Shown here one piece after another: positions 22,693-57,300 of a DNA stretch of 64,000 nt. The DNA is from a virus. The position numbers and the translations under genes were made by a program. The DNA lies in IMG/VR virus record IMGVR_UViG_3300007511_000003, positions 62,001 to 126,000 of that record; one strand, written 5' to 3'. Positions within the stretch are counted from its first letter, which is position 1. Each line of letters starts with the position of its first letter. The notes under the pieces were generated by a model, which saw nothing but the letters and a program-made list of their open reading frames with translations, was not told the origin of the DNA and ran no database searches.

Positions 22693-23465
22693 TAGTAGTA
22701 CCCTAACAGTTTATGTTGTTGAGCAACCACCCGGATGTTATATCCTTGGTTCCAGTTCAGGATCATCTGGGTGATGCGTTGGAGTTCCTTAGTAGGAACA
22801 GGGCCCTTGGTGTTGTCAGCACAGGGCGTAAGGATGATTGGGTGTGACATAAAAGCGTGGTCTTGTAACAACCCACTGAAATGTTGTAATAACCAATCCA
22901 GGTCTTCTTGGTCTCGTACCACTGCCTTGGCATATACCTGGGGCATCTTCTCGATAACTTGGTAAAGGGCTGCCAGCACGTCGGCCCCCAATTCGACACC
23001 TGTATTTGGCGTCTTGATATCCAACGACACCTGATCAAAACAGTTAAAGGCTTGGCTGTCAATGATAGTACCGCTAGTCTCCAGGTTTGTTCGCAACCCT
23101 CGCCGTCGAAGTAAAGTCGAAAGGCGGGTTACTTGGGGGCGGTAGTGGAGAGGTTCGCCCCCTGTAATGGAAACCTCCACCACTTTACCTTTGACTATCT
23201 TTACCAATCGGTCCGCAAGCGAGGAGACCTCAGCCAAGGGGTGTTCTCCTACTGCCCAACTATCCTTGGTATCACAAGTAGTGCAGCCTACAGCACATCC
23301 GGATACACGGATAAATAGCCTGGGTACCCCTATGTTTATACCCTCCCCCTCCAAAGTCTCCTGGATTTCCATCACAGGGAGAACATCGTCGGGCACCTCA
23401 TGGATTCCCAGTTTCAAGAGGTTACACTTAAACTTGGGTACCACCACATTGATCGGCTTAATCAT
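22692..23465 (-). CDS. queE: 7-carboxy-7-deazaguanine synthase
   Basis: 257 residues. A radical SAM cluster C57-x3-C61-x2-C64 (CAVGCTTC), an earlier EIQETLEGEG, VSITGGEPL (SAM-binding GGEP) and LETSGT define QueE. It converts 6-carboxytetrahydropterin to 7-carboxy-7-deazaguanine. The substrate comes from FolE plus QueD; no QueD is visible in this window. 4-base overlap with the polymerase gene. Confidence 0.93.
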   Translation of the reverse strand: MIKPINVVVPKFKCNLLKLGIHEVPDDVLPVMEIQETLEGEGINIGVPRLFIRVSGCAVGCTTCDTKDSWAVGEHPLAEVSSLADRLVKIVKGKVVEVSITGGEPLHYRPQVTRLSTLLRRRGLRTNLETSGTIIDSQAFNCFDQVSLDIKTPNTGVELGADVLAALYQVIEKMPQVYAKAVVRDQEDLDWLLQHFSGLLQDHAFMSHPIILTPCADNTKGPVPTKELQRITQMILNWNQGYNIRVVAQQHKLLGYY

Positions 23466-25534
23466 CCTTCGACTCCTTCATAAAATTCAGTGTTCAGCGG
23501 GAAGTGTTCGTCCAACCAAGGTTGTATCCGTTTGCCTTCCGCACGAATCATTGCCATTGTCTCTTCTACATTTACATTGTAGCCAATTTCATCGCGTTGA
23601 CGTTCTAACGCCGACCGGATGTTGTGCAGGAGGTTTTTCTTGGTGTAATCCCACTTTTGCATGGCGTCCCCGGAAGCCCCTATGTCAAAGTCTACCGCTA
23701 GCCCTACGTTAAACTGGAAATGAAACGTCTCTGCCACTTTCTGCTCAACGCCGACTGTAGTACACCACTCCAGCAATCGGAGGACCAAAGGAATATACCG
23801 ATAGTTCACCTCCACTTCAACGCTGTCATGGACCATCATGGACGGGTAAAGGTTCGTTGGAACCCCTATCGACTGGAGTTCTTCCCCGTCAGGATCCAGC
23901 CCATATAAGTCCTGTAAGCTTTCCCACAGTTTTTCACTGTACAGGCGTGCAGCAAGGAATCCCAACTGGCTGGCGAATCCCTGAATAGGGCTGTTGGCCG
24001 CCCGTCGTTTCATGGCGGACACCAGACCAGGAACCTCTGTCATGTAAGCAAACAGGTTTCGCTTGAACCCCAGAGGGTTGTAGGTGTACAAACGGTCGGC
24101 ACTAAAATCGCATGTCCACTGGATCCAGTTGCCTGCCTTGAAAAACTTGGCAAAGAAACCGCCCTTCACCTTTTTCATCTCAGCTTCTGACTTTCCAGTG
24201 TCCCGAGCCAAAGACCTATCCGACTTACCATACATGGTCCCAAAGGTAATCACCTTTGAATCCTGCCGTTGTTCCTTTGTCACCTTCTCTACAGGTGTGC
24301 CAGTAAAGAACTGGTAGTTAAGTTTGTGGGGGTCGCCCTTCTCTTTTAAGTCGTCTCTGTGCCGAGCGGTCGGTTGCTGGCGGAACCGCAGACGGAGGTT
24401 GTGCACAACCTTAAACATCATGGCCAGCACGGCATCCTTGCTGATGATACCCCAACAACGCACCTCATGAGCGGCATAATCAAGCTTAATAACCAAACAA
24501 CCCACACGGGCAGTGAATGAACGTTTGATAAACTTGGCATCAGGACCGTGTTGGGGTGTTTGTTGGAGGCTTGGTTCTGAGCTATTACTGCGCCCTGTCA
24601 CAACATCCTTAAATCCATACTGCGGACGTAACCTGTGGTCCACCTTCCCGTCACGGGATTTACCAATCTTCTTGTAGAAGGCGTTGACATAGGATGTGAG
24701 CAACTTCTTGAGCTTGGACAAGGTGGTGAAGTCAGCCACCTCTGGATGTTCTTTGTACTTTTTCTGGAATGCGGCGTCTATTGAAGCGGCATCATCCTTA
24801 CCTGTTGACAGAGGTTCCAGCCCCATCACCTGGATAAACAACATCTGTTTGTGGGCGGCTTTATTGGGATCAAATACCCAAGCCTGGGTGTTACCAAATA
24901 TACCACCGCCTGGGGGAACCCCTTGTACTTCACACAACAATCGGTTGGCGGTCTGGACATGTTCTGACTCTCTCATCTGAGCCGCGAGTTCCTTCCGTTT
25001 GGCCAGCACTGGGGACCGTCGGCGGTCGCGGAGCAACAACAGGTATTCGATATCCAGATGGGCTCCTGTTTGTTCCATGCCACTCATCACATGGACAGTA
25101 TCCGACATCTGAGTAAGCAATAAGCGCCTATAAAACCTTCTGTAGTTGTGTTTACCTACCCGTTGGAGGGCCGCCCTTTCTTGCTGGAGTTCATGGACAC
25201 GGAAGCAAGCTTGAGTATCCATTGCACAATAGTCTAATACCTCGTCAGACAGGTCTCTGTTGGCTATGTCTTGACGGTCATCTTTAGAAAACCTGGCGTC
25301 ATAGTAAAAGGCGTTCCCATAGTAGGCCAATATTTGTGCCAACCCATAAGCTGGTGTACCGTACAGCATCAACACCTTCATGTTCTCGTCAAGGCAATTG
25401 TGAACCAAAACTGGTTTATCACTAATTTCATTACAAATAAATAGGTTGTGATTATCCTGTACCGTAACATCACATACCATAGGTGGGGAGTCAACCACCT
25501 TTACCGACTTAACTCTTACAGTTCGGGTAACCAT
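23462..25534 (-). CDS. DNA polymerase I family, C-terminal half with split-intein C fragment
   Basis: 690 residues. Residues 1-46 are a C-terminal split intein ending in VLVHN, followed by Cys47. The extein starts CLDENMK, then the Exo III motif (Y102, D106 in LDYCAMD). The polymerase domain has motif A VIKLDYAAHEVR (D352), motif B RQDSKVITFGTMYG and motif C MMVHDSVEVEV (H569, D570). It is joined in trans to the N-terminal gene 1 kb upstream, giving a spliced polymerase of about 1010 residues. Its ATG is back to back with the ATG of the endonuclease gene on the other strand (CATATG). Confidence 0.92.
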   Translation of the reverse strand: MVTRTVRVKSVKVVDSPPMVCDVTVQDNHNLFICNEISDKPVLVHNCLDENMKVLMLYGTPAYGLAQILAYYGNAFYYDARFSKDDRQDIANRDLSDEVLDYCAMDTQACFRVHELQQERAALQRVGKHNYRRFYRRLLLTQMSDTVHVMSGMEQTGAHLDIEYLLLLRDRRRSPVLAKRKELAAQMRESEHVQTANRLLCEVQGVPPGGGIFGNTQAWVFDPNKAAHKQMLFIQVMGLEPLSTGKDDAASIDAAFQKKYKEHPEVADFTTLSKLKKLLTSYVNAFYKKIGKSRDGKVDHRLRPQYGFKDVVTGRSNSSEPSLQQTPQHGPDAKFIKRSFTARVGCLVIKLDYAAHEVRCWGIISKDAVLAMMFKVVHNLRLRFRQQPTARHRDDLKEKGDPHKLNYQFFTGTPVEKVTKEQRQDSKVITFGTMYGKSDRSLARDTGKSEAEMKKVKGGFFAKFFKAGNWIQWTCDFSADRLYTYNPLGFKRNLFAYMTEVPGLVSAMKRRAANSPIQGFASQLGFLAARLYSEKLWESLQDLYGLDPDGEELQSIGVPTNLYPSMMVHDSVEVEVNYRYIPLVLRLLEWCTTVGVEQKVAETFHFQFNVGLAVDFDIGASGDAMQKWDYTKKNLLHNIRSALERQRDEIGYNVNVEETMAMIRAEGKRIQPWLDEHFPLNTEFYEGVEG
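25397..25534 (-). mobile_element. Split intein, C-terminal fragment (IntC)
   Basis: The 46 residues before Cys47 of the polymerase C-half: VKSVKVVDSPPMVCDVTVQ, then NHNLFICNEISDK and PVLVHN. They match the last intein blocks (F: DVTVxxNHNLF; G: VHN|C). There is no upstream intein part in this gene; the partner is IntN at 26553-26846. Confidence 0.9.
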
Positions 25535-26593
25535 ATGAAGACCTCAGAAATACGTATGTTAGTGGAGCGGCGAGTGTTTGACCAAAAAATAAAGTTAACT
25601 CAAAAATTTGTACGAGACATGTCACCAAAACTCTTAGGATATTGCCAAAAGGAAGCTCTGCGAATTTATGGAGGTAAATACCCACCCTGGTGGGCTATTC
25701 TCTATAAAGTTATTTACAAGGACCACTATCGGTGCCGGTGTGGGTCCGAAAAACTAGCTTGGCAGGGTTGGGAAGGCGGTCTGGCGGAATACTGTTCCTG
25801 TAAATGTGCAGGGGCCTCTCCGGATGTTTTGAAAAAGAGGGAACATACTTGCCAACAAAAGTACGGTACTAAACATGTACAATCGGTACCTAGTATACGT
25901 GCTAAATTTAAACAGTCTATGGTACGAAACCAAGGAGTAGAATACACAGCCCAAAGCCCACGCTTAAAAAAGAAGATGCGTAAAACACTCAAAAAGAACC
26001 ATGGAGTCGAAGAAACTTTCCATTCCATGGTTCTTTATGGTAAAGCAAAGGCCACCATGTTACAGAAATATGGTGCTGAGCATAACCAACAGGTCCCCCA
26101 CCTGTTTGAACAACAACAAAGGTCAGGTTTTAAAATACGTACCATAAAAGTTAATGGGAAACGGTTTAGGGTACGTGGAGGGGAAGGTCATGCTATAAAA
26201 TACCTTGTCCACGAACTTGGGTGTTCTATAGACGAAATTTACACGACGGCGGTACAAGGTAAGCCATCCATCCCTTGGTATGACAATAAAAACAAGTACC
26301 ACATATATCACCCTGACATCTATGCCAAAGTTAAAGGGCGATGGTTTATTATTGAAGTCAAAAGCACGTATACAGCGGGTATAACCACCAAGTCTGGGGC
26401 TGAGTTTTACCGGCTACGTATGAAGGCAAAGGGTGTGGAAGAGGCCGGTTACAATTTCAGGACACTCCTTGTCCATTATGGACGGTCCCTCCCTCTTGAC
26501 TACCGTCCACTTGTTATTAAAGACATACACCAAAAGACCAGAAAACAGGTTAGGTCTGAAGTAAAACTTCATCGTCAGAGGTTAGGTTCTTAG
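25535..26593 (+). CDS. Homing endonuclease, Vsr-like PD-(D/E)XK type, between polymerase halves
   Basis: 352 residues from the ATG at 25535; an open frame extends further upstream, but that start would lie inside the polymerase gene. The N-terminal half has about three repeats of the KYGxxHxxQ / GVExxxxS / KYGxEHNQQ type found in phage-borne DNA-binding proteins. The C-terminal nuclease has GGEGHAIKYLV, then YHPDIYAKVKGRWFIIEVKS, followed by TAGIT. It lies on the opposite strand between the two genes of the split-intein polymerase and overlaps the tail of the N-half by 44 bases. Small basic/zinc parts (CRCGSEK, CSCKC) also occur. It probably cuts intein-free polymerase alleles. Confidence 0.82.
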   Translation: MKTSEIRMLVERRVFDQKIKLTQKFVRDMSPKLLGYCQKEALRIYGGKYPPWWAILYKVIYKDHYRCRCGSEKLAWQGWEGGLAEYCSCKCAGASPDVLKKREHTCQQKYGTKHVQSVPSIRAKFKQSMVRNQGVEYTAQSPRLKKKMRKTLKKNHGVEETFHSMVLYGKAKATMLQKYGAEHNQQVPHLFEQQQRSGFKIRTIKVNGKRFRVRGGEGHAIKYLVHELGCSIDEIYTTAVQGKPSIPWYDNKNKYHIYHPDIYAKVKGRWFIIEVKSTYTAGITTKSGAEFYRLRMKAKGVEEAGYNFRTLLVHYGRSLPLDYRPLVIKDIHQKTRKQVRSEVKLHRQRLGS

Positions 26594-27944
26594 CTTTTAC
26601 ATAGGAACCTCGGGTAACCGACCAAACCTCATGGTCTTCAGTAACGCGAATGGATCCCCCTTCATAGGATATTTCCACCATTCGTTGGTCTGTTGGGTGG
26701 GTAGAAGTAGCTAAAAGTGGTTTATATTCTTCCTGTTGTGTTTTATGGTTATATGATAAAACCTGAGGAGGATTCCCCATAACCACCAAGTCTTTCATTT
26801 GTACCATACCACGTTCCGTTACCACCCAAGACTCTGGGTGTATACAGAACTCACCGGCAATGGTGTCCCAAACAGGCCAATAAATGAATGGGAGATCGAA
26901 CTCCTGACGTATAATACGAAGGTCAAATTTGGCGTTGTGCATAACCAAATAACGAGGGGATTTAGGCTGCCATTCCACTCGTTGCCCAAAGTAGGCACGT
27001 AGTTCCTTAAATATTGTGCGGAACTCTGATCCTGAGAATGGGGTATCACGATGGTGTACAGGGAGGATAAAAGCCCTGTCGGGATTGTCTGAGAATTGGA
27101 GGGTCTGGAGTTGGTTATGATGAACGGACAGGTTCTTGGTCTCTGAGTCAACGGAAACCACGGGAGCCCGTTTAATGACCCTCATCATACGCTTAAACTT
27201 GCTCAACGTATCGATGAGGATTGGATTTGGCCGCACCTCGGAGGCCGTAAATGGGAGTCGGTCCAAAAACGCCGACATGAGAGTGCGTCCGATATATCCA
27301 AGAATATTGGCCTGGGTGATGGCTTCATCCATCTTTGTCTGACTCTCGGCATCGGAGTCATTGTCCATGTCGGTACCACGCAAAAAATAGGTGTGGTCGT
27401 ACCGTATGGTGTTGGTGACCAGGACAGGCTTCCCTCGCACTTTGATAGCATGGGGCCAACCCCTTTTATGTGAAATGTCATCCACCCGGGGTAACAGGGA
27501 TTCTGCCGCTTCATCCCCAAATACTATCACGTTCGTCGGATCCATCTTGCGAACAAACGCCTTTACTCGCTTAGAAGCAGCATCATTGGCGTGCTTACGT
27601 CGGGCACCTTTGAGGTGGTAGGTCTTGAAGAAATTGAAGTTGATGGTGGCATAAGCCACCGATTCCTCAATGGATTCTGGGTTGACAAGAGCACATTGTC
27701 GGCGGGCAAATTGTAGGAGGTTCGTGACAACGGTGGCGCCGGTTCCTCGATCCAATAACGCCTTTTCCTTGAGGTCTTTACCATCCACATGTTCTACCAC
27801 CAGAATAACACGGCGCCTGGCGGTCTTCCAGTTTTTCGTTATAGGGATAGCTACGTCAAATGCGGGGCATTCCTTTGGGCTCCAACCCTCTGGAAGATCG
27901 TTTTGGAAAGTCACATAACGCATCTGCCGGCGGTCTGTTATCAC
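26550..27944 (-). CDS. DNA polymerase, N-terminal half (UDG-like and 3'-5' exonuclease) with split-intein N fragment
   Basis: 464 residues. Residues 1-230 resemble a uracil-DNA-glycosylase-like domain, as in SPO1-type polymerases (VIVFGDEAAESLLP, GWPHAIKVRGKPVLVTNT). Exo I (VVSVDSET, D266/E268) and Exo II (VMHNAKFDL, D341) follow. The extein ends WDTIAGEF366 and Cys367 opens the intein. The break lies between Exo II and Exo III, which sits in the other gene. ATGA overlap with tmk upstream. Confidence 0.92.
   Translation of the reverse strand: MITDRRQMRYVTFQNDLPEGWSPKECPAFDVAIPITKNWKTARRRVILVVEHVDGKDLKEKALLDRGTGATVVTNLLQFARRQCALVNPESIEESVAYATINFNFFKTYHLKGARRKHANDAASKRVKAFVRKMDPTNVIVFGDEAAESLLPRVDDISHKRGWPHAIKVRGKPVLVTNTIRYDHTYFLRGTDMDNDSDAESQTKMDEAITQANILGYIGRTLMSAFLDRLPFTASEVRPNPILIDTLSKFKRMMRVIKRAPVVSVDSETKNLSVHHNQLQTLQFSDNPDRAFILPVHHRDTPFSGSEFRTIFKELRAYFGQRVEWQPKSPRYLVMHNAKFDLRIIRQEFDLPFIYWPVWDTIAGEFCIHPESWVVTERGMVQMKDLVVMGNPPQVLSYNHKTQQEEYKPLLATSTHPTDQRMVEISYEGGSIRVTEDHEVWSVTRGSYVKAKNLTSDDEVLLQT
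26553..26846 (-). mobile_element. Split intein, N-terminal fragment (IntN)
   Basis: The last 98 residues of the polymerase N-half: CIHPESWVVTERGMVQMKDL (block A, Cys1), a middle SYEGGSIRVTEDHEVW with the block-B TxxH (here TEDH), and KAKNLTSDDEVLL before the stop. With IntC it makes a complete trans-splicing intein of about 144 residues with no endonuclease of its own. Confidence 0.9.
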
Positions 27945-36762: not shown

Positions 36763-37410
36763 TTACTCCATTGATTCGACCATCTTTTCCTTTATGTGCC
36801 CTCGCTGTGACTCAATGTATCGAGCAATCGTACCGGCACTCTCACGCGCCAAATTGTTCAATTGAGGATGCCTGTGCTCTGGCACATAGGTTTCCAATGA
36901 TCTCTTGAGATTGTGTAAGCTATCAATCACCACCTGCGCGATACCGATAAAGGCGGGATCGATTATTTCCGATGACAGTTGCAGAGCCAGTTGCCTACCA
37001 TCCCTCTCTGCCTGCATGTCTGCAATTAGCTCCCTTGCTTGGGAAACCAGACTGTTTAAGGCATAGGCAGCCCTCTCTGAACCCTCCTGCCTGTACTTGT
37101 CTTCTGCTATGGGTATCAGGTCCATCAGGGACTTCAACATAGTACGCTGAAACCGATTGACCGCGCTCTCTGTCTGCTGGTCTTCCAGTAGGGATGCGAT
37201 TTCTGTTACGTCATCCTTAAACAAAGAACGCAGGTTCTTCAAACGACGTGCTTGTTGACGCTGTTTCTTGGTCAAGCCGCTAGACGGGGGCCTCCCCTCT
37301 TTATGAGAGGAAGAGACCTTGCCCGCCCGCGATTTTTTTAACCGCTGCGACTTAACATGTGATACAGCCACATCCCGACGTTGGGCATATTGCTTACCCC
37401 TGACTGTCAT
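36763..37410 (-). CDS. Hypothetical helical protein with basic N-terminus
   Basis: 215 residues. The first 60 are Lys/Arg/Ser-rich (nucleic-acid-binding-like), the rest amphipathic helix. Possible internal head protein by context; no family signature. Confidence 0.45.
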   Translation of the reverse strand: MTVRGKQYAQRRDVAVSHVKSQRLKKSRAGKVSSSHKEGRPPSSGLTKKQRQQARRLKNLRSLFKDDVTEIASLLEDQQTESAVNRFQRTMLKSLMDLIPIAEDKYRQEGSERAAYALNSLVSQARELIADMQAERDGRQLALQLSSEIIDPAFIGIAQVVIDSLHNLKRSLETYVPEHRHPQLNNLARESAGTIARYIESQRGHIKEKMVESME

Positions 37411-37469
37411 TAGGCTCCCTCCAGTTAATATTCAGGATGTGTTGGACCCTTACCAATCAGAGAGATAGT

Positions 37470-37941: not shown

Positions 37942-38234
37942 TCCATCTTGAAAAGTTTTTGAAAGTTGGCTACTTCCAGTATTCTACGGACGCCAGGACG
38001 TGCGTGACGTAATACTACACGCTTGGGTCCTAGCTTTTCGTTGGCTATTAACAGAATACCAAGGGCAGCACTATCAATGTACCTGGCATGTCTTAGGTCA
38101 ACCACAAGATTCTGGTCGGGTTTAACCTGGTCCATAGCCTTCCGAAACATACCATGACATTCAAATTGGAAGGTACTGGGTGGTACAAACACCACTTCCT
38201 TACTATCCGAGTGTATTTTGCACTCCTGTTCCAC
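37938..38234 (-). CDS. STAS-domain protein (anti-sigma-factor antagonist-like)
   Basis: 98 residues, one complete STAS domain: NLVVDLRHARYIDSAALGIL with the phosphorylatable serine at residue 55 (YIDSAALG), then RVVLRHARPGVRRIL and FQKLFKM. In bacteria such proteins (SpoIIAA/RsbV family) bind anti-sigma factors or partner kinases. A phage version could redirect host stress or anti-sigma switches. No kinase partner is seen in the window. Confidence 0.82.
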   Translation of the reverse strand: MEQECKIHSDSKEVVFVPPSTFQFECHGMFRKAMDQVKPDQNLVVDLRHARYIDSAALGILLIANEKLGPKRVVLRHARPGVRRILEVANFQKLFKME

Positions 38235-38938
38235 TATGATACTCCACTTGCGAAGTCTATTGCCATCTGCTTCGCGTCATCCATCGTTTCCGCCTGCCAC
38301 TCCCCACGCCCTCTGTTAAACTGCTCAACATGGTCTGTATAGATGACCTGACTTTCATCACCTTTTGGCCAAATTTCATAGGATACATGGATGTTTACAC
38401 TGTCACCGTCCTCGTGGAGAGTGATCTCTTTGTTCTGGTACATGTCATCTGAGTACCATGCCTCAACGTCCTCGAGGAATTCCTGTGGGTCGGAAGGGTG
38501 AAAAGCACAATCACCTTTCTTGACTTTGGAGCCGACTCCAAACCCATACATGGCGCGGTGACTCCACCCATACCACTTTTGTTTGGCCTCACAGTATCCA
38601 ACAGAGCAGACATTGTGGTCGGGTGCTGACAGTTCGGGTACGATTCCTCGTTTTGCCAAAGAGGCAGCGAACTCGGGATCCCCTATATAATCCCCATCTA
38701 GGTTGTATGCACTCTTCATCTCCAGCGGCTTATTGGAACCCGACTCTCCAGGCGGAATCTCTTCGGTCCTCACTTGGTAAGTAGGGAACGTCTGTATGCT
38801 TAGGACCTTTCGCAAACTCGACAAGGAGAGCCGGGCTAGGGCCTGAAACCTCAGGCCCTTGCTAGGCACCATGGCACAAACTTGGCCGCGGTGTATTACT
38901 GGAATACGTGGAAGCAGGACAACCCGTAGGGATTTCAT
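38234..38938 (-). CDS. Hypothetical protein with QALARL-type leader
   Basis: 234 residues; ATG at 38938 follows the previous stop by 3 bases (an inner ATG at 38872 is possible). MKSLRVVLL starts it and QALARLSLSSLRKVL lies near 32-46. The later domain has VGYCEAKQKWYGWSHRA, a text I associate with conserved large-phage proteins of unknown function. One-base overlap with the STAS gene. Confidence 0.55.
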   Translation of the reverse strand: MKSLRVVLLPRIPVIHRGQVCAMVPSKGLRFQALARLSLSSLRKVLSIQTFPTYQVRTEEIPPGESGSNKPLEMKSAYNLDGDYIGDPEFAASLAKRGIVPELSAPDHNVCSVGYCEAKQKWYGWSHRAMYGFGVGSKVKKGDCAFHPSDPQEFLEDVEAWYSDDMYQNKEITLHEDGDSVNIHVSYEIWPKGDESQVIYTDHVEQFNRGRGEWQAETMDDAKQMAIDFASGVS

Positions 38939-39477: not shown

Positions 39478-39616
39478 TGAGACCTCCCTTTTTGAAAAGT
39501 TGACGCCAAGATACGTTACAGCTCAAGACGCCGCTGATAAAACCAATGGTTAAAGCCGGCATTCCAATAATGATGAGTGCCGAAACAAGGTCGAGGGGCG
39601 GAATAAAATCAAACAT
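39419..39616 (-). CDS. 65-residue membrane protein
   Basis: Starts MFDFIPPLDL with GGAGG upstream. One hydrophobic span (VSALIIIGMPALTIGFISGVL), then a basic tail; the end overlaps the next gene by 59 bases in another frame. Unassigned. Confidence 0.45.
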   Translation of the reverse strand: MFDFIPPLDLVSALIIIGMPALTIGFISGVLSCNVSWRQLFKKGGLNGPTQRSIGPAASGLECCQ

Positions 39617-39645
39617 GGCGGGCCTCCAATTGATGGGTCCACCAT

Positions 39646-39765
39646 TCACATTCCCAGCAACAGCCTCATTTTTACCCATGCAAAAAACATCGCACCACCT
39701 ACTATATACAGTAATCCCATAAAGAACAGCTCTTCCTTCCAGTGAGGGCCCCTTGGATCTTTCAT
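39646..39765 (-). CDS. 39-residue membrane peptide
   Basis: Starts inside the ligase stop (ATGA overlap): MKDPRGPHWKEELFFMG, then a hydrophobic helix (LLYIVGGAMFFAWVKM). The exact coupling to ligA supports a real gene. Unassigned. Confidence 0.5.
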   Translation of the reverse strand: MKDPRGPHWKEELFFMGLLYIVGGAMFFAWVKMRLLLGM

Positions 39766-40730
39766 TTTTCTAGGTTGAACGTCTCAACCAGCTCTTCCCT
39801 AGTCATGATCTTGATGCCAAGGTTAACCGCTTTCCGCTCCTTGGAACTGCCAGTACCTTTAAGTTTCATCACCAGGACTGTCACTTTCCTGGAGATGCCG
39901 CTGGCGATAGTACCGCCCTCACGTTCGATTTGTTCTTGTAAGTCTTTATCCCTGAAGCCGGTAAACACCACAATCTCACCCGACATCTTGTCACCCTCTG
40001 GAGGAGCCACAGGACCTAGTGTTTCAATGGTAATCAGGCGTTTGATGGGTTTTACGAAGGCCTGGAATTTGGGAAATCCTTGGGCAAACTGCTTGGCACG
40101 CTTACTGCTGAACCCAGATACAGACAGGGCCATATGCTCCAAGTCCCGAGGGTTAGGTCTGTTAAGATCCATGATCTGCGGGTATTTCTCAACCAGTGGT
40201 GTTAACTGCCGTACACCAAAGCCAGGACCGAATACCCCAGAAGCCGCCATCAATACGGGCAGAGACACTGGATTCAAAGCTTTCTTAATCCCGGTGACGA
40301 TGGTGGTGGCCGTTTTATCCTGGATGCCAGGAACCGCCATCAAGTCTTTTTTCGTGGCTCGGATAACGGCTTCGATGGAGTCGATTCCATGAGTAGCCAA
40401 CCGTTGGATTGTACCTTGAGCAAAGTTTTCGACTTCAATGGCCTTAAAAAACCAAGCAATTTGTTTTACCAACTGTTCGTCGGTGTCCCCCGTGGCGCGT
40501 ATATCGACACCAGAGGAAGTCCATTCAAAGTTACCGTCTTCCGGTAATCCTGCCTTGCGGCTAGGAGCAACAACCTCCAAAATATGCGGGATAACATCTC
40601 CACTCCTTGTAATCTTGAGGACCGCACCAGGCCCTACCTTGTTGTCGTTGATGAACTTGGCATTGAAACCAGTTACCCGACGGATAGTTACCCCTCCCAA
40701 TCTAACACCAGGACGTACACTTTTAGCCAT
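39762..40730 (-). CDS. ligA: NAD-dependent DNA ligase, C-terminal fragment
   Basis: 322 residues. It begins inside the OB domain (VRLGGVTIRRVTGFNAKFI, ITRSGDVIPHI), continues with helix-hairpin-helix repeats (LMAVPGIQDKTA, GVFGPGFGVRQL) and ends with a BRCT domain (GEIVVFTGFRDKDL). The four zinc-ligand cysteines of LigA are absent. It starts 8 bases inside the 3' end of the endonuclease gene (ATGGCTAA). With the N-terminal fragment at 41760-42743 it covers a whole LigA, so the two products probably assemble without covalent joining. Confidence 0.88.
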   Translation of the reverse strand: MAKSVRPGVRLGGVTIRRVTGFNAKFINDNKVGPGAVLKITRSGDVIPHILEVVAPSRKAGLPEDGNFEWTSSGVDIRATGDTDEQLVKQIAWFFKAIEVENFAQGTIQRLATHGIDSIEAVIRATKKDLMAVPGIQDKTATTIVTGIKKALNPVSLPVLMAASGVFGPGFGVRQLTPLVEKYPQIMDLNRPNPRDLEHMALSVSGFSSKRAKQFAQGFPKFQAFVKPIKRLITIETLGPVAPPEGDKMSGEIVVFTGFRDKDLQEQIEREGGTIASGISRKVTVLVMKLKGTGSSKERKAVNLGIKIMTREELVETFNLEK

Positions 40731-41760
40731 GGTGTATCCCCTTTAAAATCTGAGTGCGTGTCTTCCGATACCAACCTCGTGGCAAAACTATGCGTTTGGG
40801 GGAGCCGTTATCATTTTGCATAACCAAAAGTCGAAAGATAAAACCATCCTTCATTGTCTGTCGGGCTTTAGCACACAAAATGTGCCATAAACGGTCAGGG
40901 GAGCTTTTATGTAATCTATGGTTTGTTAATCCTGCCGTGTGTAAAGACTTTACTTCTATAAGTATGTTACGGTCCGGGAGGAACAAATCGGGGTAGTACC
41001 TACGGTTCTTTCCGTCAAGTTGGTAATATACAACCGGCACTTCGCGGTCACTAAATACTCGGATCCTTGAAGGATCCACCCCTTTTTTGTGGAGTAACCA
41101 ATCCAATGCTAGGTCTTCATATCCTTGTACCTGAACGACCCGGGAACCTAACGTATAAGAATGATAAAATCTTGTGCTGGAACAAGCATTACATGCCAAG
41201 CCTCGTTTAGCCAACACGGAAGAAGGGCGGGCCGTAAATAAGGCACCGCAAGAAAGGCATTTATGTTCTATTGGAACACTAATACCCTTATACACTCCTA
41301 TAGGCTGTAGGGCTTTACCTAATTTCTCCAACCTCTCACCGTATCTCTCTGTGGTATGTAGGCCATGTTTTGACGGGTTGCATGATCGACAACCAACACC
41401 ACGTTTAACAGCCTCTGTGGTATACCAATCCTGGGTATTACAAAACTTACATTGATACAGGTTTTTGGCATTCTTCAACCGACGATAACCTTCCATAACA
41501 TAAAAGGAAGAGTTACGGATTTCTGTCATATGGTTGCACATCGAATGGAAATTCTGCAACCTATCAGAGCAGGCAGGGCAGTTAAGGAACCCGTTTTTCG
41601 TGGTCCTGGGTTTAGTTATAAACCCATTACCGCAGATCTTACAATAATGGCTACAAGGTACGTGAACACCGGAATACCCGGAAAGGTACCCTACCAAAGT
41701 AGAATCCAAGGATTTAATATACTCTTGTTCTCTTACCTCGAGAGATTTAGACATACCCAT
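40723..41760 (-). CDS. Homing endonuclease (zinc-finger, Vsr-like PD-(D/E)XK) splitting ligA
   Basis: 345 residues. Five CxxC pairs in the N-terminal two thirds (CKICGNGF, CPACSDR, CKFCNTQ, CRSCNPS, CLSCGALF/CNACSS) form repeated zinc modules. The C-terminal nuclease reads VQGYEDLALDWLL, YYPDLFLPDRNILIEVKS, TAGLT, colinear with the enzyme at 25535. It starts on the TAATG of the ligase N-fragment and ends on the start of the C-fragment, so it fills the gap completely. Likely cuts uninterrupted ligA. Confidence 0.85.
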   Translation of the reverse strand: MGMSKSLEVREQEYIKSLDSTLVGYLSGYSGVHVPCSHYCKICGNGFITKPRTTKNGFLNCPACSDRLQNFHSMCNHMTEIRNSSFYVMEGYRRLKNAKNLYQCKFCNTQDWYTTEAVKRGVGCRSCNPSKHGLHTTERYGERLEKLGKALQPIGVYKGISVPIEHKCLSCGALFTARPSSVLAKRGLACNACSSTRFYHSYTLGSRVVQVQGYEDLALDWLLHKKGVDPSRIRVFSDREVPVVYYQLDGKNRRYYPDLFLPDRNILIEVKSLHTAGLTNHRLHKSSPDRLWHILCAKARQTMKDGFIFRLLVMQNDNGSPKRIVLPRGWYRKTRTQILKGIHHG

Positions 41761-42743
41761 TACATCGGTTCCACTATGACAGTAGGTTTCAAAATACCAT
41801 GCTTAGACACGTTCCATTCTACACTCACCACCCTACATTTCACTATCTGATCCTCCATCAACATCTTGAAGGCTACGCTGTACCGAGGGTTGCCAGATGT
41901 GGCGCGTTTGTATATTGAGTCCTGTGTGACCACCAGACCGTCTATGGCAAACTTAGAGCTCTTCCGCCTCGCAATGAGTCTGTCAGAGAGTGTCTGGGCG
42001 TCCAGGACCTTATAGGCCTTGGCAGGAGCGACCGTGAATCCAAGCTGGTGTTTCAGGTAGTTGAGCTGTTCGGAGGGTTTCTTGCGTGGAACGATGAGTT
42101 CGTAGCACACCAAGGTGGCGTCTTTGAGGGCAGGGCTGACATCCGGGCGGTTGACCAACCCACCCATGAAATTCCGTGGGTTTGCGAAGTCCTTGGCGTA
42201 CTTCTTGAACGCCGTCTCGGACATGATGATCTCGGCCCGTACCGCGAAGGTGTCCTGTGTCTTGGGAAGCCCAAGAATTGGCACCATGGACGTTACATCC
42301 TGTCCGACCTTACCGTTACCTCGGGTAAACAGTTGGTACCGGCCCTTGGTACAGATGATAAGCATTGAGATGCCGTCCATCTTGTCCGACACCACGTAGG
42401 GCCCTGGGTTGGCGTCAAACCAACGGTCAAGGTCTGGAGTGTTGGGTTTGATCTTGTCGAGGGAACCCATCCAATAGGGCAGTTTTTGTTTCTTACCCTG
42501 ATCGACAGGAGCGCCTACTTTTTGGAGCAAAGGGCTGTCAGGGAACCTCTGGCGGAACGTATCCTCAATCGCGTCAAACTCGGCGTCTGACAAGAAAGGG
42601 CTTCCCTTGTAGTACGTGTTCTTGGCCCGGCGGTATAACTGACGTAGCAGCCGAGCGGACAACTTTGAGGCATAACCTCCAGGGTCTGCCTTTAGGGCTG
42701 TCAAATCGAACTCATACGCTGCCACTTCCCTCAACCTTTTCAT
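41760..42743 (-). CDS. ligA: NAD-dependent DNA ligase, N-terminal (adenylation) fragment
   Basis: 327 residues. Ia-type NAD-binding text YYKGSPFLSDAEFDAIEDTF, adenylation lysine K121 in SDKMDG, FTRGNGKVGQDVT, and AIDGLVV then VAFKML. It stops in the OB domain at the conserved EP (VEWNVSKHG, TVIVEPM). No intein sequence is attached. The rest of the ligase is the gene at 39762-40730. ATGA overlap with the upstream tagged gene. Confidence 0.9.
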   Translation of the reverse strand: MKRLREVAAYEFDLTALKADPGGYASKLSARLLRQLYRRAKNTYYKGSPFLSDAEFDAIEDTFRQRFPDSPLLQKVGAPVDQGKKQKLPYWMGSLDKIKPNTPDLDRWFDANPGPYVVSDKMDGISMLIICTKGRYQLFTRGNGKVGQDVTSMVPILGLPKTQDTFAVRAEIIMSETAFKKYAKDFANPRNFMGGLVNRPDVSPALKDATLVCYELIVPRKKPSEQLNYLKHQLGFTVAPAKAYKVLDAQTLSDRLIARRKSSKFAIDGLVVTQDSIYKRATSGNPRYSVAFKMLMEDQIVKCRVVSVEWNVSKHGILKPTVIVEPM

Positions 42744-43057
42744 CCGTCCAGTACCTGCTCTGTGGATGACTCATCATAATCTTCGTCCGCGTCACCAGCC
42801 TGACTTACCTCCATCTCCATGTCTTCCAACAAGGAACTTGCTTGGCTGAGCAGAGCATGGAGTTTCTTACTGTCACCAAGGAAACCAGGATCCAGACGCT
42901 TGAGTTCCTTGGACAGAGGAGACCCTGGAGTTTTGGTCATCGTCAAGGCATCTTCGACCATCGTGTATAATTTGTCGATGATTTTCAGGGCAGGGTCTGC
43001 GGTACCTGCCTGTTGGCATTGTCTGAGGCGTGCCACCGCTTGTCGTGTCGTGGTCAT
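42740..43057 (-). CDS. Hypothetical protein with RQAVARLRQ leader
   Basis: 105 residues from MTTTRQAVARLRQCQQ, with AAAGGAAG upstream. Helical with an acidic tail (DADEDYDESS). The leader groups it with the HxxALxRL family of this region. Confidence 0.5.
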   Translation of the reverse strand: MTTTRQAVARLRQCQQAGTADPALKIIDKLYTMVEDALTMTKTPGSPLSKELKRLDPGFLGDSKKLHALLSQASSLLEDMEMEVSQAGDADEDYDESSTEQVLDG

Positions 43058-54825: not shown

Positions 54826-54933
54826 TGGCACGTAGTAGGAATCGAACCTACGATTCTCGCTTAAACGGTTGATCAGTCCGCTATCGGCGAGCACAGACTC
54901 TGCCTGCGCGTTTACCACTCCGCCATACGTGCC
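54826..54933 (-). tRNA. Anomalous 108-nt tRNA-like gene
   Basis: Perfect acceptor (GGCACGT/ACGTGCC, extendable to 8 bp) and T-arm (GTAGG-TTCGATT-CCTAC) and a Leu/Ser-like D-arm (GGCGGAGTGGTAAACG). Between them lie about 60 nt instead of 40. Two alternatives fit: a very long variable arm closed by CTCGC/GCGAG, or an extra hairpin (GGC-GAG/CTC-GCC) before an anticodon arm GCGGA-CTGATCA-ACCGT. No anticodon can be assigned safely. No CCA is encoded. Confidence 0.65.
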
Positions 54934-57212: not shown

Positions 57213-57300
57213 TGGTAGGGCTGGAGGGAGTTGAACCCACGGTAGGTCGCCCTACGTCGGTTTTCAAGACCGGTACCTTTAACCACTCGGCCACCCTTCC
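57213..57300 (-). tRNA. tRNA-Ser (TGA), acceptor stem mispaired
   Basis: 88 nt with encoded CCA. The D-arm (GGCCGAGTGGTTAAAGG), anticodon arm (CGGT-CTTGAAA-ACCG, anticodon TGA) and long variable arm (GTAGGGCGACCTAC) are good. The acceptor strands GGAAGGG and CAGCCCT pair at only about three of seven positions, so function is doubtful without repair or editing. Confidence 0.75.

Follow-up and report, generated by a model that had tools for sequence, protein, structure and literature searches.

How does a phage NAD+-dependent DNA ligase gene (ligA) come to be broken inside its OB-fold region by an endonuclease gene, and what has become of the enzyme that it encodes? The window analysed here is a 64,000-nt stretch (G000:C1:62001-126000) of an IMG/VR virus record of 168,900 bases, in which a ligase N-half, an endonuclease and a ligase C-half follow one another on one strand (Table 1). 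The initial annotation held that such a ligase must work as a two-chain enzyme, be spliced by an unknown route or be dead; the first of these alternatives is supported by the analysis, whereas the other two found no support and are disfavoured. Insertion of a homing-endonuclease gene has very probably turned ligA into a working two-chain ligase.

Table 1. Features of the split ligA locus, the split polA gene and a paralogous endonuclease (window coordinates unless marked otherwise)
Feature	Position	Strand	Description
Ligase N-half (N-fragment)	42743-41760	-	327 aa; NTase (adenylation) domain with KxDG lysine K121, and first OB-fold strand
Endonuclease E	41760-40723	-	345 aa; putative Cys-rich zinc-finger repeats and C-terminal PD-(D/E)XK (Vsr-like, DUF7487) nuclease
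Ligase C-half (C-fragment)	40730-39762	-	322 aa; remaining OB fold, HhH, BRCT
N-half end / endonuclease start	41760-41765	-	codons ATG TAA; TAATG stop/start overlap, A at 41760 shared
Endonuclease stop / C-half start	40723-40730	-	8-base overlap ATGGCTAA
Shine-Dalgarno-like TAAAGGGGA	40737-40745	-	within endonuclease 3' end, 6 nt before C-half ATG
Insert relative to intact ligA	40707-41765	-	1059 bp: ATG TAA, endonuclease and MAKSVRPG codons
polA N-part	26550-27944	-	ends in intein N-part from CIHPESWVV
DUF7487 endonuclease in polA	25535-26593	+	antisense between polA halves
polA C-part	23462-25534	-	begins with intein C-part ending VLVHN/C
Free-standing endonuclease paralogue	G000:C1:37046-38253 (outside window; L042:7048-8253)		32% identical to ligA endonuclease E

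The N-half matches PF01653, the adenylation domain of NAD+ ligases (7.3e-17), and the C-half matches PF03120 (OB), PF14520 (HhH) and PF00533 (BRCT), which gives the NAD+-dependent LigA features in order (adenylation, OB, HhH, BRCT), together with the KxDG lysine. Cellular LigA has a Zn-finger stretch that is absent here, as it is from the aligned intact phage relatives. On phrog_3869 (656 positions), the N-half covers 7-335 and the C-half 336-654 without a gap, and the two halves thus together tile one ligase family. The break was aligned against intact ligases of Vibrio, Pseudomonas, Rhizobium-group and uncultured phages, in which N-half residue 326/327 and C-half residue 9 are adjacent; on one intact relative (L022), N-half residues 1-327 align with 2-337 and C-half residues 9-320 with 337-655. 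No ligase residue is missing at the break, and the insertion lies directly behind a conserved EP inside the OB fold, as had been proposed in the initial annotation, where LigA was said to stop at this EP and to resume in a second gene. In the predicted structure of the same relative (pLDDT 85), the break falls close to where a long OB strand (residues 326-338) ends, just before the hairpin turn; in solved Thermus ligases, the end of the N-half corresponds to residue 347 of 1v9p and the restart of the C-half to residue 344 of 1dgs. Because the break is inside the OB fold, neither chain has a complete one, which counts against a working two-chain enzyme.

Homology to intact ligases stops at codon CCG before the insert and restarts at codon GTT behind it. 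The N-half terminates in VIVEPM, whereas the C-half starts with MAKSVRPG/VRLGGV, i.e., with 8 additional N-terminal residues (MAKSVRPG, 40707-40730) ahead of the first homologous residue, V9. These residues resemble the end of the N-half (V-R-P versus V-E-P) over a very short match; possibly they are the end of the strand, re-made after insertion. The insert length is divisible by 3 and the C-half shares the frame of the N-half, which meets 17 in-frame stops on its way through the insert. GC content is 43.5% in the endonuclease versus 52.8% in the N-half and 49.4% in the C-half. The earlier description of the gap as one endonuclease gene, joined by TAATG at its start and by an 8-base overlap at its end, agrees with the ORF coordinates. 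A gene that is continuous in relatives is thus interrupted here exactly by an endonuclease ORF.

An identical arrangement is present in three further IMG/VR contigs from different assemblies, with 0 to 7 differences across ~11 kb; the variants among these near-identical copies include one synonymous change in the endonuclease and one missense change (Q223R) in the C-half. Since the four records agree, an artefact of a single assembly is ruled out, and assembly error was rejected as the origin of the split. Outside the split itself, six of the seven differences from contig 3300008954_002089 are clustered within 64 bases (window 37365-37428), which suggests local recombination or an assembly error at that point. 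Two genes downstream of the ligase, window positions 38234-38938 (minus strand) strongly match PF25188 (1.7e-48), the type I Thoeris anti-defence protein Tad6, and add some 50 residues at the N-terminus.

Profiles of both halves were run on all ORFs of 173 loci drawn from phage records and viral contigs, the latter contributing at most 80 loci to each search. Both halves lie in a single frame in 135 ORFs (83 distinct), and among these loci split ligases occur only in the present virus (four IMG/VR records) and in phage T5. A split at the OB-fold EP site is confined to the present virus, with no independent case among the 83 distinct intact ORFs. A scan of genome contigs gave no relative, and the nearest intact relatives in the collections searched are 42-44% identical. 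Among the open-licence papers searched, none was found that describes a homing endonuclease within a phage NAD+ ligase gene; gene splitting by homing endonucleases has precedents in other phage genes, and, as far as these papers show, the combination of a ligase with the present endonuclease family is new.

The inserted ORF matches DUF7487 (6.4e-14) and PHROG endonuclease families. Residues Glu215, Pro257-Asp258, Glu269-Val-Lys271 and Lys298 are invariant across eight relatives and follow the PD-(D/E)XK/Vsr-like pattern; 'HNH', as PHROG labels the protein, is misleading, and it is a predicted zinc-finger/Vsr-like (PD-(D/E)XK) homing endonuclease. Foldseek with its structural model gave RecE and Vsr as the best sensible matches, both weak, the zinc-finger half being poorly modelled, and a PDB sequence search gave chance matches only. 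The N-terminal half is Cys-rich, with Cys pairs common to the free-standing paralogue; the endonuclease itself scores DUF4379 at E=0.022 and RNHCP at 0.003, both below cut-offs, and the paralogue scores four DUF4379 zinc-finger stretches and CapR. By eye, the paralogue lies between QueD/6-pyruvoyl-tetrahydropterin-synthase-like and orotate-phosphoribosyltransferase-like genes. An outgroup of homing endonucleases that combines CapR/DUF4379 with an EDxHD/Vsr-like domain has been described from phage group I and II introns (PMC12350094), and the ligA endonuclease matches this group in its C-terminal Vsr-like nuclease domain and, putatively, in several Cys-rich repeats of ~60 aa.

Three relatives of the endonuclease sit between the halves of split-intein genes, each antisense to the gene that it interrupts: those in the helicases of Dickeya phage JA33/JA11 and Yersinia phage fHe-Yen9-02, and that in polA of the present genome. 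Further relatives are free-standing. Because its members are found in several split genes and on their own, the family is probably mobile and recurrent in replication genes. The JA33 (L047 2997-6112) and fHe-Yen9-02 (L046 2663-5847) helicases are split-intein fractured genes with two distinct insertion sites; they are annotated as separate helicases or hypothetical proteins, and the JA33 endonuclease carries no annotation.

In the mechanism that we propose, phage NAD+-dependent ligA was continuous until a homing-endonuclease gene, bringing no self-splicing element, entered its OB-fold region. One message would carry all three ORFs: the N-half would be translated normally, the endonuclease poorly through re-initiation at TAATG, and the C-half efficiently, with a Shine-Dalgarno site of its own. 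Pairing non-covalently across the broken OB strand, the two chains would then form a working two-chain ligase, and the endonuclease would spread the insert by cutting the empty site of uninterrupted ligA alleles. The calculated Shine-Dalgarno strength of the C-half (-7.8 kcal/mol) exceeds the upper-quartile cut of 60 window ORFs (-7.4), whereas that of the endonuclease (-3.3 kcal/mol) is weaker than their lower-quartile cut, a pattern consistent with low expression of the parasite and with expression of the C-half.

Assembly of the fragments into an active enzyme is what conservation and branch lengths point to. Both halves keep all catalytic and structural residues that are invariant in close relatives. 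The terminal branch of the present ligase on a fixed tree measures 0.627 in the N-half and 0.729 in the C-half, a C/N ratio of 1.16 against a median of 1.13 (rank 31 of 58), and the divergence of the C-half is thus ordinary; prolonged decay of the C-half is therefore disfavoured, although the comparison is blind to any loss of function much younger than the separation from relatives of ~40% identity, and a very recent loss could be hidden. The 168.9-kb record, which may be incomplete, yielded no further ligase: PF01653 matches once and PF01068 never, and a paralogous intact ligase in the same genome was rejected on these grounds.

These data bear on the possibility that the ligase has been inactivated, with a recent insertion, a phage that uses the ligase of its host, and two halves that are passengers yet to decay. 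The split is seen only in the present virus, host LigA could replace the phage enzyme, a signal of decay would be absent anyway after a recent insertion, and a missense change (Q223R) in the C-half stands among the few variants between near-identical copies. However, neither half is frameshifted or stopped in any of the four records, invariant residues are retained without excess divergence of the C-half, and the new C-half start is preceded by a good Shine-Dalgarno site, which an accidental insertion would not need. We therefore regard an inactive ligase as unlikely, and the earlier proposal of a dead enzyme as unsupported, with the reservation that a very recent insertion could mask the loss.

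A second alternative concerns origin only and is compatible with a working two-chain ligase: ligA may once have been a split-intein fractured gene, the halves of which came to assemble without splicing, after which the intein was lost and the endonuclease left behind. Relatives of the endonuclease do lie in split-intein genes, including one in the present genome, where the gene for DNA polymerase I is, from its predicted intein parts, a classical fractured gene. In these three cases, however, the endonuclease is antisense, whereas in ligA it is sense and overlaps both halves. With both ends of the break read, no intein block or remnant was found at ligA; the halves stop and start at homologous ligase residues, and an intein was rejected accordingly, as was a split-intein fractured gene, the intein N- and C-halves present in polA being absent. 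In addition, the residue behind the break is V, not the C, S or T needed for splicing. We give such an origin little credence.

Self-splicing RNA was sought with Rfam, which gave no RNA family, group I and II introns included, at the locus at the gathering cut-off. Elsewhere in the window, Rfam tRNA matches above the gathering score lie at 54827-54932 and 57216-57297 (both minus strand) and were not called by ARAGORN; the former spans 106 bases, long for a tRNA. The ribosomal hop of T4 gene 60 crosses ~50 nt. Restoration of a full-length ligase, by an undescribed intron or by a hop over the endonuclease, is scarcely credible. In its favour, the two halves share a frame, which chance would give one time in three, and relatives of the endonuclease do inhabit group I and II introns (PMC12350094); however, no Rfam model matches even at E<=1 over 39600-42900, the endonuclease ORF occupies all but ~30 bp of the insert and leaves no space for a separate ribozyme, and a hop here would span ~1 kb. 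A group I or II intron was rejected on the same search, and the earlier statement that the gap has no room for an intron and holds no intein is thus borne out.

A working two-chain ligase would extend to DNA ligase the few known cases of replication enzymes that homing endonucleases have split, and would place in a genes-in-pieces arrangement an endonuclease family hitherto reported from introns. Chances are about even for a broader reading, in which the ligase is obligately two-chain, the endonuclease is locked in the operon by the start/stop overlaps, and one family makes insertion into replication genes tolerable either by protein splicing (polA) or by fragment self-assembly (ligA). The presence in one genome of a split-intein polA and a splicing-free ligA allows one to ask directly which of the two solutions a given gene will tolerate. 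A ligase broken in its OB fold would also probe the minimum of covalent continuity that nick sealing requires, and a natural split-ligase tool may follow from it.

Known systems make the splicing by an unknown route that had been suggested needless, since independently expressed fragments that assemble by themselves are documented for Aeh1 NrdA, T4 gp39/60 and the phage 25 polymerase (PMC2988022), and T5 has a two-gene ligase. In 'fractured genes', as outlined in PMC12350094 from Dassa et al. (2009), split inteins and an EDxHD/Vsr-like endonuclease lie between the halves of a gene. The present ligA is similar in that a Vsr-like endonuclease gene parts the halves of a DNA-metabolism gene, and polA has the same layout; however, fractured genes, polA included, have intein halves and an antisense endonuclease, whereas ligA has neither, its endonuclease being in the sense direction and translationally overlapping, without a splicing element. 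The CapR/DUF4379 enzymes with EDxHD/Vsr-like domains are intron-borne (PMC12350094), whereas the ligA endonuclease is inserted without an intron.

In Escherichia phage T5, the NAD+ ligase is likewise encoded by two adjacent genes, ligA and ligB (T5.116/T5.117, AY543070), annotated as subunits A and B. T5 LigA (323 aa) runs through the OB fold, and the split falls between OB and HhH, with two annotated promoters and no endonuclease between the genes; LigB is far diverged. A T5-type arrangement was rejected for the present ligase, the break of which falls within the OB fold, close to where strand 326-338 of the L022 model ends. In phage Aeh1, nrdA is interrupted by mobE, and this 'genes-in-pieces' ribonucleotide reductase is, by the account that PMC2988022 gives of its ref. 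91, fully functional in two pieces. The two cases share a homing endonuclease in a critical region of a DNA-metabolism gene, two ORFs and the lack of a splicing element; Aeh1 concerns a ribonucleotide reductase of proven activity and an HNH endonuclease, whereas the present virus has a putative two-chain NAD+ ligase and a predicted PD-(D/E)XK/Vsr-like endonuclease. A comparable arrangement in T4 mobE, UAAUGA, hints at translational coupling (PMC2988022). In phage 25, the DNA polymerase fragments encoded by genes 43A/43B (seg) co-purify and are active, and the T4 topoisomerase genes 39/60 (mobA) are an endonuclease-associated split in which the chains work together (PMC2988022); both resemble the ligase proposed here as endonuclease-linked two-chain replication enzymes, but in other genes and with other endonuclease families.
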